From: Thermodesulfobacterium sp.
GTDB taxonomy: Bacteria > Desulfobacterota > Thermodesulfobacteria > Thermodesulfobacteriales > Thermodesulfobacteriaceae
Assembly (NCBI GenBank): GCA_017656385.1
Contig: JACDNX010000010.1
Span: forward strand, 1-63,200
Length of the DNA: 63,200 nt
Direction of reading: 5' to 3'
The position numbers and the translations under genes are program-made. The notes beneath the pieces are model-generated. The model saw only the letters and a program-made list of their open reading frames with translations. It was not told the origin of the DNA and searched no databases. This document shows, piece by piece, positions 15,917 through 19,979 of the stretch (its first letter is position 1; each line of letters starts with the position of its first letter).

Positions 15917-16741
15917 TTATTTTGAAAGAATTTCAATCCAGGTATTGGGAATAGAAAAATAGTATGGATTAAGTCCAGGATGATAGTATTTCCCTCTAAA
16001 AATTTGTTTGGGGTTAAACCAATCTTTTTCTTCTTTAGTTGCTAAAAAGAAAGCTATTTCTTCTCCGTAAGAGGGAACAAAAGCTCTCACTATTTTAACT
16101 ACGGGAAAAACAGAAGATATAAGAGGATAGGCAGATTTTATAATATGAGGAAAATAAACAGGAAGACTCGCCTGCTGAATAAAAATACCTTTTGGATTTA
16201 AGACTCTATAAGCTTCTTTATAAAATTCTTTTGTATATAAAGACTTAGCAGGTCCTACAGGGTCAGTGCAGTCTACAATTAGGAGATCAAATTTTTCTTC
16301 AGGGCACTCTTTAAGTCCTTCAAGTCCATCTTTGTTTATAAAAGAAACTCGAGGATCTTTATAATCACCTGAGAGCTTGAAAAAATACTTTTGACAAACC
16401 TCAAAAACAAGTGTGTCTACTTCAAACTGGATAATTTTTTTTATAGAAGGAATTTTTTGCAGTTCCCTTAAAACTCCACCATCACCACCACCTACAATGA
16501 CCACATTTTCTGGAAGGTTTTCAAGCAGACTGGCAGGAAGATAAGTTATGGTCTCATGATAAATAAATTCATCCTTCTCAGTAAACTGTACAATTCCATC
16601 TAAAACAAAAAAATATCCCCATACAGAATTTTTAAAAACCTGGATTTTCTGTAAATTCTTCTCTTCAAAGACTAATTCAACTTTGTAAGCGTGTCCAAAA
16701 TCTTGATAAATCTTTTCTTTCCACCAAAATTGTCCAGTCAA
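15917..16741 (-). CDS. speE: spermidine synthase family aminopropyltransferase
   Basis: A 274-residue SpeE homologue that transfers an aminopropyl group from decarboxylated SAM to a polyamine. Seen: YHETITYLP, the nucleotide loop VIVGGGDGGVLREL, the acidic EVD that follows, and the catalytic VDCTDPVGPAKSLY. The C-terminal acceptor region diverges from standard spermidine synthases: the usual glycine pair in the PTYxGG motif is replaced by Glu-Glu (PSYGEE), so the amine acceptor may not be putrescine. The start is a TTG that overlaps the stop of the upstream SpeD homologue (TTGA), so the two are translationally coupled. Confidence 0.85.
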   Translation of the reverse strand: MTGQFWWKEKIYQDFGHAYKVELVFEEKNLQKIQVFKNSVWGYFFVLDGIVQFTEKDEFIYHETITYLPASLLENLPENVVIVGGGDGGVLRELQKIPSIKKIIQFEVDTLVFEVCQKYFFKLSGDYKDPRVSFINKDGLEGLKECPEEKFDLLIVDCTDPVGPAKSLYTKEFYKEAYRVLNPKGIFIQQASLPVYFPHIIKSAYPLISSVFPVVKIVRAFVPSYGEEIAFFLATKEEKDWFNPKQIFRGKYYHPGLNPYYFSIPNTWIEILSK

Positions 16742-17175
16742 GTTTCACCCCAATCTTCAGAGATTCCCCTTGATATTTCAGCTACATATACATTTTGAGG
16801 TTTAAGGTGCTTTTGCAAGTTTTTTAATATTTTATAAGCTTCTTCTTTGGTTTCTGCTATAATGTCAATAGCAGAGTATCCATTTTCAGGCCAAGTATGA
16901 ATATAAATATAAGCCCTTCCAGAGCTAATCTGTGCAGAAACTCCAAATGGCTGAAACTGATAGCTTATAGCTCTTGTGTTGCTGTTACCGTTAAAAGGAT
17001 TAATTGCAGATTTTAAAGCCTTTTCCACAGTTTTAGCTTTAGCAAGAAGTTCAAAAGGGGAATTCCAGAATTCTACAATTAAATGATAACCCCAGATACT
17101 TCGTTTAAGTGCACCCTGCTGGGCAGGAGTAATTTCAAATCTTTCTACTTGGCAAAGGGGTTCCACTACTCTCAT
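16738..17175 (-). CDS. SpeD (S-adenosylmethionine decarboxylase) homologue lacking the pyruvoyl serine
   Basis: 145 residues that align without gaps to bacterial SpeD: GYHLIVEF (Glu35), QPFGVS (Ser80), IHTWPENGYSAIDI (His93). With Thermotoga SpeD numbering from memory, the offset is +25 throughout. The self-cleavage site Glu62-Ser63 is replaced by Arg87-Ala88, and the proton donor Cys83 by Glu108. Ser55 and His68 equivalents are retained. Without Ser63 no pyruvoyl group can form, so it cannot decarboxylate SAM by the known route. It has about 25 extra N-terminal residues. It is coupled to the speE-like gene, so it probably still acts in polyamine synthesis, perhaps as a regulatory or binding subunit. 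Good GGGGAGGTG ribosome site. Confidence 0.8.
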   Translation of the reverse strand: MRVVEPLCQVERFEITPAQQGALKRSIWGYHLIVEFWNSPFELLAKAKTVEKALKSAINPFNGNSNTRAISYQFQPFGVSAQISSGRAYIYIHTWPENGYSAIDIIAETKEEAYKILKNLQKHLKPQNVYVAEISRGISEDWGET

Positions 17176-17188
17176 AGCTCACCTCCCC

Positions 17189-17205
17189 CCAGGCAAGGTG
17201 CCTGG
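17189..17205. repeat. 7-bp inverted repeat before the SpeD-like gene
   Basis: CCAGGCA and TGCCTGG separated by three bases, directly upstream of the Shine-Dalgarno of the SpeD-like gene and touching the predicted -10 box. It may be an operator or a short 5' stem-loop; it is the only GC-rich stretch in this leader. Confidence 0.5.
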
Positions 17206-17233: not shown

Positions 17234-17241
17234 TAAAAAAA

Positions 17242-17315
17242 TCGGGACGGGCGGATTTGAACCGCCGACCCCCCACACCCCAAGCGGGTGCGCTTCCAAG
17301 CTGCGCTACGTCCCG
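17242..17315 (-). tRNA. tRNA-Pro (anticodon GGG)
   Basis: A full cloverleaf on the minus strand: acceptor CGGGACG/CGTCCCG, D stem GCGC/GCGC, anticodon stem CCCGC/GTGGG with loop TTGGGGT giving anticodon GGG, and T arm GGCGG-TTCAAAT-CCGCC. Discriminator A; CCA is not encoded. A run of seven T follows the 3' end. It would read CCC and CCU codons. Confidence 0.95.
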
Positions 17316-17366
17316 ATTTGAAAAGACAAAAAAAGCCTTTTATTTAAAAATTTTAAAAAACTTTTT

Positions 17367-19646
17367 TTAAATGTCAACCCTATAATTTTTAGCCAATTTT
17401 TTTCTTAGTTCCTTTGCAATTTCCACCATATTTTTAAGAGCTGGCACTACTTCTTCCCATCTCCTAGTTTTAAGACCACAGTCCGGATTTATCCATAAAA
17501 GTCCTTCGGGAAAAACTTTTAAAGCCCTTTCTATTACTGTTCTTATTTCCTCCTTTGTGGGGATTGTTGGAGAATGAATGTCATAAACTCCAATCCCTAT
17601 CTGCCGATCCCAACCTTTATAATTTTCAAAAGCCTCAAGTATTTCTCCTTTGCTTCTTGATGCTTCTATAGAAATCACATCAAAATCCATCCGATAAATA
17701 TATTCTATTATTTCGTTAAATTCAGAATAACACATATGAGTATGAATCTGGGTTTCAGGATTAGCCTTGGAACAAAGTTTAAAAGCTTTTACTGCCCATT
17801 CAAAGTAGTTTTCCCAATCCCTCTTTTTTATTGGTGCCCCTTCCCTGAAAGCAGGTTCATCTATCTGTATGATTTTTATGCCTACCCTCTCCAGATCTTT
17901 TATTTCTTCTAATAAAGCTATTGCTATTTGATAAGCTATCTCATTTTTAGGTATGTCCTCTCTATAATAGCTCCAGTTTAAAATAGTTACCGGGCCCGTT
18001 AACATCCCTTTTACAGGTTTTGATGTAAGACTTTGTGCATATGTTATTTCCTCCAAAGTCATAGGAGAGATTCTATACACATCTCCGTAAATTATTGGAG
18101 GTCTATAAACTCTTGTTCCATAAGAAAGAACCCATCCTTGTTTTGTTGTAGCAATACCTTCAAGTTTTTGTGCAAAAAACTCAACCATATCTGTTCTTTC
18201 AAACTCTCCGTGAACCAATACATCAAGTCCAATCTCTTCTTGAAGTTTTATAACTTCTTCTATTTTTTTCTTTATAAAAGATTTGTATTCTTTTTCAGAT
18301 ATCTCTCTTTTATTAAATTTTGTTCTCATTTTTCTTACATCTTCAGTCTGCGGGAAGGATCCTATGGTTGTAGTTGGAAATAAGGGAAGATTGAGACGTT
18401 TTTGTTGTATTTTAAATCTTTCTTGATAAGAAAGCTCCCTTTTAAAATCTTTTTCAGAAAGATTCAAAATTTTTCTTCGTATTTCATCATTTTTTCCGAA
18501 TTCCTTTTCAAAAAGTTTCTCATTTTCCTTTACAACTTTTAGAGCTTCGTCTTTACCCTCAAAAGCATCTTTAAGAATCTTTAGTTCTTTAAGTTTTTCT
18601 TCGGCAAAAGAAAGTTTTCCCAAAAGTGAGGAAGGTAAGTGCTCTTCACCTTCAAGTGAAATAGGTAGATGATAAAGCGGACAGGAATTGGAAATTATTA
18701 ATTTCTTACTAACTTGTGAAAGTTTTTCTATTATATTTAATTTTTCTTTTAAATTTGCTTTCCATACCTGTCTTCCATTTATAATTCCAGCTATTAGATA
18801 TTTATTTTCGGGGAAACCTAATTTTAACAAATTTTCCAGATTTTCTTTATTTGAAGTTAAGTCTAATCCCAGACCATTTACAGGAAGTTCAACAAAATTG
18901 TGATAATCAGATACGCTATCGTAATAAGTTAAAATCCATAATTCTCCTAAAATTGCTAAATTTTTATAGATCTCTTTTATTAATTCCCATTTCCAGACAT
19001 TTAGTTCCATAACAAAAGCTGGTTCTTCTATTAATACCAATTTGGCTCCAGAGTCAAATAGTTTTTGGAATATTTTTTGATATAGTGGAACCAGTTTTTC
19101 TAAAAATTTTTCAAACTTTTCTTTTTCTTCTATTTTGCAGCGTCTTAACTTGCCATTTACTTTAATCACAACTTTAGAAAGTTTTAAAAAGGTAAATGGC
19201 CCAATAATTTTGGGCAAAGTAGTAAACCCTAAATTTTTATGAAAAATAAAATCATCTAAGGGAAAATTTTTTAAAAGAGAAAAATCATCATTTTCTATTT
19301 CAGGCACAAGATAGTGATAATTGGTATTGAACCATTTTGTTAACTCCAGAGCATCTTTCCCTTTTGCCATTTCAAAGTATGTAGAAAGTCCTTTATAAGG
19401 TTTAAATCTTTCAGGGATAATTCCTAACATTATTGAGGTGTCAAGCATAAAATCATAAAGTGAGAATTCATTACTGGGAAAAAGATCCACATTTTTGCTA
19501 TATATTTCAGCTCTTTTTAATTTTAATTTTTCAATTTCTTTAAAAAAATCCTTTTCCTCAATATTTCCTTTCCAGAAGTTTTCAATCAGTTTTTTAAATT
19601 CACGATTTTTACCAAGTTTCGGGAAACCAAAGGCCATTGTTTGCAT
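17367..19646 (-). CDS. metE: cobalamin-independent methionine synthase MetE
   Basis: About 759 residues. It transfers a methyl group from 5-methyltetrahydrofolate (polyglutamate) to homocysteine without B12. The N-terminal half shows [16 protein letters not shown]; the catalytic C-terminal barrel has [63 protein letters not shown] and NPDCGLKTR, with the zinc ligands His, Cys, Glu and Cys in place. The open frame reaches an ATG at 19661, but that codon is part of the GGAGGTGG ribosome site; the ATG at 19646 is correctly spaced, so I use it. A cobalamin riboswitch upstream should switch the gene off when B12 is plentiful. Confidence 0.95.
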
Positions 19647-19713
19647 AAACACCACCTCCATCTATAAATTTAAAAATTTTAAAATGAGAAATTTAGTGAA
19701 GATAGGAATGGGT

Positions 19714-19746: not shown

Positions 19747-19768
19747 TGTTTCACCCCCTCGGGTTTTT

Positions 19769-19944
19769 GGGCTGAAGCGGTCTTCCGGCTTCCGGATCAT
19801 CCTACTTGCCGCGCCTTCCCAGAGGGAAATTTCCCTCCAGTGGCTTGTCGGCTAAGCCTTTGGCTTAGCCCAAGCGGCTTTCGTCCCCGGTCACGGCTGC
19901 GGGGCAGCGGGGGATTTTCACCCCTCTTCCACAACTTCAGCCCG
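19769..19944 (-). promoter_or_regulatory. cobalamin riboswitch upstream of metE
   Basis: On the minus strand the RNA is closed by GGGCTGAAG (19943-19935) pairing with CTTCAGCCC (19777-19769). Inside are the conserved elements GGTGAAAATCCCC, GCTGCCCCGC, GACGAA, GCCACTGG, GGGAAGGCGC and the B12 box AGTAGGATGATCCGGAAGC followed by CCGGAAGACC. It is far richer in GC than its surroundings, as structured RNA in a thermophile should be. Binding of adenosyl- or methylcobalamin is expected to shut down the downstream genes. No hairpin plus T-run is visible before metE, so control is probably at translation. Confidence 0.93.
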
Positions 19945-19950
19945 TTTAAT

Positions 19951-19979
19951 TAAATACCATAAAGTTAAAGTGCTGTCAA
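19951..19979 (-). promoter_or_regulatory. promoter of the riboswitch-metE transcript
   Basis: Minus strand: perfect TTGACA (19979-19974), a 17-base spacer and TATTTA (19956-19951). The transcript would begin just before the first pairing strand of the riboswitch. Confidence 0.65.

Follow-up and report, generated by a model that had tools for sequence, protein, structure and literature searches.

How does a SpeD homologue without a pyruvoyl serine come to be maintained in front of an aminopropyltransferase gene? The question is raised by the 63,200-nucleotide stretch of Thermodesulfobacterium sp. DNA analyzed here (the window; contig JACDNX010000010.1 of assembly GCA_017656385.1), in which an open reading frame on the minus strand (16738 to 17175) encodes a class 1b SpeD homologue of 145 amino acids that lacks the pyruvoyl Ser, Glu62 and Cys83. 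SpeD residue numbers such as Glu62, Ser63 and Cys83 are those of Thermotoga maritima (Tm), and the window protein and its orthologues are called SpeD*. The window protein has a single PF02675 (AdoMet_dc) domain (77.1 bits, E = 1.6e-21), its match to T. maritima SpeD (1tmi) covers residues 28 to 141 (E = 2.6e-16), and its AlphaFold model superposes on 1tlu with a Z score of 17.2 (rmsd 2.2, 111 aligned residues). At the position of Tm Glu62-Ser63-His64, it has Arg87-Ala88-Tyr89, read from AGG GCT TAT (AGG GCT at 16912 to 16917, minus strand), and the position of the catalytic Cys83 is occupied by Glu108 (codon at 16852 to 16854, minus strand). Ser80, His93, Trp95 and Glu97 correspond to Tm Ser55, His68, Trp70 and Glu72, and IHTWPE is retained. 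A preliminary description of the locus had listed the substitutions at 62, 63 and 83 and the preserved Ser55, His68 and IHTWPE core, and the alignment to Tm SpeD bears this out; that alignment had been called gapless, but phmmer shows two single-residue gaps. With TIGR03330, the NCBI model for true AdoMetDCs, the protein scores 68.2 bits, below the cutoff of 75.65. Thus, it has the fold of SpeD and PF02675 homology, but neither the pyruvoyl Ser63/Glu62 nor Cys83.

The adjacent speE gene (15917 to 16741, minus strand; 274 amino acids) encodes the genome's only PF01564 aminopropyltransferase. Its TTG start codon overlaps the TGA stop codon of speD* (TTGA at 16738 to 16741, minus strand), and the translational coupling noted at the outset extends to the orthologues, with TTGA present in all 48 adjacent pairs. 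Three genomes have speD* detached from speE (G327, G237 and G134) and a fourth (G179) has no detectable SpeE; the active-site residues of SpeD* are unchanged in these four.

SpeD* orthologues were sought across the genus, family, order and phylum, and 52 were read. They represent at least 11 Thermodesulfobacteriota families, with genera such as Thermodesulfobacterium, Caldimicrobium, Thermodesulfatator and Thermosulfurimonas, score at least 126 bits with the SpeD* profile (canonical SpeD, <100 bits) and form one clade with a support of 100/100. In 11 close pairs, dN/dS was approximately 0.03 to 0.2 (Nei-Gojobori, stop-to-stop frames), and judged by these ratios SpeD* evolves under purifying selection. 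E11, F49, S55, H68, W70, E72 and D79 are invariant in 52 of 52 sequences. Position 63, on the other hand, is Ala in 32, Ser in 7, Val in 4, Leu in 4, Thr in 3, Ile in 1 and Met in 1. Glu occupies position 62 in 3 of the 52, and Cys is never found at position 83. Since the same losses are found in 52 orthologues with low dN/dS, they are not a matter of chance or error, and the view that AGG GCT is not a misread frame is upheld. It had also been suggested that Ser63 in sister species would speak for a sequencing error or recent decay. Seven orthologues indeed have this Ser, but all of them lack Cys83 and all but one lack Glu62, so that Ser63 sits inside an otherwise dead site and does not indicate recent decay. 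The exception (L036, genome G030) is the only SpeD* with Glu62 and Ser63 together; Glu-Ser-His at 62 to 64 has been restored or retained there, with Cys83 absent.

Matches from Armatimonadota, Baldrarchaeota and Chloroflexi were rejected as SpeD* because their ESH and Cys are intact. In family f40, which also has a second SpeD, the canonical-like SpeD retains Glu62-Ser63, but in two of four genomes (G140 and G115; L141 and L142) Cys83 is replaced by Ser; this protein possibly represents an independent onset of SpeD*-like erosion. The C-terminal residue of SpeD* is Thr in 52 of 52 sequences and is nearly always preceded by Glu or Asp. This Thr persists without a downstream speE, L139 encodes it with a different codon (ACC), and it may be a conserved tail and not only an effect of the overlap.

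A second SpeD with an intact ESH, for which a genome search had been proposed, was indeed found. The genome (completeness figure, 100%; 44 contigs) encodes exactly two PF02675 proteins, SpeD* on contig C10 and a second, ESH-bearing SpeD, here called B, on a separate contig (G000:C2:59946-60281; L001). In B, AESHISIHTFPE and FSCK are intact, and Glu-Ser-His and the Cys are intact in 43 of 43 B sequences; B scores 84.8 bits with TIGR03330 and thus exceeds the cutoff of 75.65. All well-assembled SpeD* genomes contain B, a few incomplete ones show one member of the pair, and no case of a canonical SpeD alongside SpeD* was seen in the genomes read. A third, divergent SpeD homologue is present in a few genomes (L047, L071 and L072). 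We also looked for speD* adjoining or fused to B and found no such case among the loci seen.

In each of the SpeD* genomes fetched, the gene after B belongs to the agmatinase family; the one in the genome of the window scores 238.7 bits with TIGR01230 (cutoff, 174.3). Among the families tested, no other arginine or ornithine decarboxylase was found in this genome (PF01862 and PF01276 are absent), and a PF02784 match was rejected as such because it reads as LysA. The phage relatives of B that we examined offered no assayed arginine decarboxylase for comparison. SpeDA arginine decarboxylases are clustered with speB and occur in genomes without SpeA or SpeC (PMC10407285), and B resembles them in its intact cleavage site with Glu-Ser-His and Cys, in its speB/agmatinase context and in its presence without SpeE.

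The latter became apparent from the distribution of SpeE and BpsA. Soluble SpeE was present in 30 of 31 genomes with B and SpeD*. Fourteen genomes have B without SpeD* or canonical SpeD (G363, G408, G226, G300, G394, G281, G127, G262, G094, G046, G379, G078, G150 and G057, the last of which was counted despite a remote SpeD homologue beside B), and only one of them, G281, has a soluble SpeE, whereas BpsA above the cutoff was found in 0 of 14. The others have no SpeE or weak matches in frames of mostly >500 residues, and in many of the 14 an agmatinase adjoins B. The association of SpeE with B plus SpeD* has a Fisher p value of 2.6e-9, which is a guide only, since related genomes are not independent. 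From this profile, SpeD* sits where an AdoMetDC is expected. Since B without SpeE or BpsA but next to agmatinase fits the SpeDA pattern (PMC10407285), B by itself looks like a pyruvoyl arginine decarboxylase; unlike SpeDA, B, known here from its sequence, is also the only candidate for a catalytic AdoMetDC subunit. The SpeD set of Thermodesulfobacterium thermophilum consists of B and SpeD* only (G001; L178 is identical to the G001 locus), yet norspermine has been reported from this organism (PMC11107197), so that some AdoMetDC must exist there. One genome that is 97% complete, G179, contains B and SpeD*, yet neither SpeE nor BpsA was found in it.

The active site of class 1b SpeD spans two protomers. 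Partly on the basis of secondary literature, we take one side of the Tm site to consist of Glu62, pyruvoyl Ser63 and Cys83 and the other side to consist of Phe49, Ser55, His68, Trp70 and Glu72. If SpeD* and B are compared with 18 canonical SpeDs at the 34 columns conserved in the latter, the two proteins turn out to have lost different residues. E11, F49, W70, A77 and E109 are kept in 51 or 52 of 52 SpeD* sequences but in 0 of 43 B sequences, whereas I60, E62, S63 and C83 are present in 43 of 43 B sequences but in 0, 3, 7 and 0 of the 52 SpeD* sequences, respectively; G56 is kept by B and lost in all or most SpeD*. Canonical SpeDs retain both sets. H7, G53, S55, H68, T69, P71, Y75, D79, R112 and G113 are complete in SpeD* and B alike, and P51 and E72 are almost complete, with Glu72 mostly kept in B.

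The eukaryotic AdoMetDC consists of two fused class 1b units, and the C-terminal one is devoid of a cleavage site (PMC10407285). In the Trypanosoma brucei enzyme, the pyruvoyl group, Glu and Cys are in the N-half and the ligand-contacting Y243 (aromatic) and S249 are in the C-half (PMC5201418). The SAM contacts of human AdoMetDC include Phe223 and Glu247 (PMC3686867), and Tm Ser55 corresponds to human Ser229 (PMC3975893). The spacing of human residues 223-229-243-247 matches that of Tm 49-55-68-72 within one residue, and from this spacing we infer that Phe223 and Glu247 correspond to F49 and E72. Given the complementary losses and the division of residues in the eukaryotic enzyme, SpeD* resembles a free-standing C-half and B resembles the pyruvoyl-bearing half. 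A fold preference of SpeD* for the C-half of human AdoMetDC (Z of ~10) was dropped as evidence because the model of B shows this preference too.

A retained non-catalytic role of SpeD*, as the preliminary description had proposed, is strongly supported by sequence data: SpeD* is an ancient single clade under purifying selection with invariant substrate-side residues, and with this invariance a mere scaffold role is not expected. The most probable role, to which we assign a probability of about 0.5, is that of a non-catalytic half that binds the substrate in a hetero-oligomeric AdoMetDC formed with B. B would bring Glu62, pyruvoyl Ser63 and Cys83, and SpeD* would bring Phe49, Ser55, His68, Trp70 and Glu72; together they would make up a single complete AdoMetDC site and produce decarboxylated SAM, which would be consumed by the translationally coupled SpeE and by BpsA. 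B by itself would act as a pyruvoyl arginine decarboxylase and supply the agmatinase encoded next to it. Both the activity and the existence of a B:SpeD* complex, like the arginine specificity of B, are predictions. More tentatively, and at somewhat less than even odds, one pyruvoyl subunit might serve two enzymes, with B acting on arginine as a homo-oligomer and on SAM together with SpeD*; the partner would set the substrate and couple both spermidine branches, in parallel to the dead eukaryotic AdoMetDC half but in trans. Of the two roles suggested earlier, that of a prozyme, with B as the live partner, fares better, although completion of a shared site is likelier than pure allostery. Several observations point against the split enzyme: in the loci seen, it is speE and never the gene for B to which speD* is coupled; Ser55, His68 and, in most sequences, Glu72 are still present in B, which makes a dual-specific B homodimer conceivable; and G179 (no SpeE or BpsA found) and G281 (B alone plus SpeE) are exceptions to the distribution.

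If B alone were a dual-specific AdoMetDC/arginine decarboxylase, SpeD* could be a regulator, either a prozyme-like activator or a sensor of SAM or polyamines. B has every self-processing residue and its TIGR03330 score passes the AdoMetDC cutoff, and the prozyme of trypanosomes is a dead AdoMetDC paralogue that activates a live one (PMC5201418). We consider this unlikely, since F49, W70 and E11 are lost in 43 of 43 B sequences, an altered SAM side that would be left unexplained, and since genomes in which B is accompanied by neither SpeD* nor a canonical SpeD have no soluble SpeE (except G281) and no BpsA. The prozyme and the Leishmania ADL resemble SpeD* in that each is a dead AdoMetDC paralogue beside a live one in the same genome. 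However, they are class 2 proteins of two domains that have lost SAM-binding residues (ADL keeps 0 of 5 conserved ones) and relieve autoinhibition (PMC5201418, PMC3686867), whereas SpeD* is a protein of 145 amino acids with one domain and an invariant SAM side.

A role of SpeD* as an aminopropyltransferase subunit, in which it would serve SpeE in trans as a structural or decarboxylated-SAM-binding domain, is distinctly unlikely and the weaker of the two roles suggested earlier. The conserved TTGA coupling would suit such a role, but a plain speD-speE operon predicts identical coupling. The N-terminal domain of human spermine synthase has the SpeD fold (3c6k, residues 6 to 121; Z = 10.4), is, like SpeD*, linked to an aminopropyltransferase without catalysis and serves dimerization (PMC11203672); in contrast to SpeD*, which is a separate open reading frame with invariant SAM-side residues, it is part of the same chain. 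Fusions of canonical SpeD to SpeE also occur in the phylum (L020 and L022). However, both aminopropyltransferases of T. thermophilum, APT01 and APT02, were active alone in Escherichia coli (PMC11107197), the window SpeE carries its own tetramerization domain, and a purely structural domain has no need of H68, E72 and F49, which stay invariant even in the four genomes where speD* is not beside speE. A decarboxylation of SAM by SpeD* itself, by a route that does not use a Ser63-derived pyruvoyl group, would be consistent with its position in the AdoMetDC profile and its intact SAM side; we regard it as very improbable, since Cys83 is absent throughout and no newly conserved Ser, Cys or Thr was found around the cleavage site; invariant residues of these kinds are limited to Ser80 and Thr94, which canonical SpeD also has, and the C-terminal Thr145. 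Recent decay, a sequencing error or a misread frame, for which nothing speaks beyond the odd residues themselves, is hardly credible with losses common to 52 orthologues spread over at least 11 families, dN/dS well below 1 and full clade support.

The split AdoMetDC proposed here would resemble the eukaryotic class 2 enzyme, in which the pyruvoyl group belongs to the N-half and the C-half, also devoid of a cleavage site, has retained the residues of the substrate side. It would differ in that B and SpeD* are encoded by separate genes on different contigs and are not fused in cis, and in that B, as the proposed live partner, has the features of an arginine decarboxylase more than those of an AdoMetDC half. 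SpeD-type domains without self-cleavage beside a live one are also known from Lentisphaerota and Desulfobacterales, where SpeD occurs with a degraded SpeDC (PMC10407285); there, the dead domain is of the ornithine-decarboxylase type and part of a fusion, whereas SpeD* is a stand-alone protein of the AdoMetDC lineage in a speD-speE operon. Our literature search for a bacterial AdoMetDC prozyme or a stand-alone SpeD pseudoenzyme, with most subscription journals outside its coverage, found none. If the reading is correct, SpeD* would be a clade of stand-alone bacterial AdoMetDC pseudoenzymes whose mechanism is predicted by the residues kept and lost. It would make testable the origin of the eukaryotic AdoMetDC with its one live and one dead half, the redirection of a live enzyme to another substrate by a dead subunit, and the source of decarboxylated SAM in Thermodesulfobacterium. 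Annotations are affected as well: SpeD* proteins such as L036 and L082 pass the NCBI AdoMetDC cutoff, though catalysis by these proteins alone is unlikely, and B carries the label AdoMetDC but by itself is more likely an arginine decarboxylase.

The surroundings of speD* have several further features. A leader hairpin (CCAGGC-loop-GCCTGG; 17180 to 17205, minus strand) runs into the Shine-Dalgarno sequence GGGGAGGTG. It occurs once in the window, with a folding z score of -2.46, and a search of Rfam gave no match. In the form CC[A/G]GGC-loop-GCCTGG before GGGGAGGTG, it is kept by almost every member of the order (leaders L034 to L070) and is missing from other orders; it could regulate the translation of speD*-speE. 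A tRNA-Pro(GGG) gene (17241 to 17316, minus strand) lies just upstream of the window speD*. A tRNA-like 3' end is also found upstream of speD* in L082, L126, L133 and L140, including cases from other orders, in which the next gene is not always speE. Farther upstream are metE, encoding the cobalamin-independent methionine synthase (17367 to 19661), and, upstream of metE, a cobalamin riboswitch (19759 to 19954, minus strand; 76 bits). In two of the genomes with speD* detached from speE, G327 and G237, its neighbor encodes another SAM-handling protein, a SAM hydroxide adenosyltransferase (PF01887, PF20257; L133:663-1451 and L138:586-1374).
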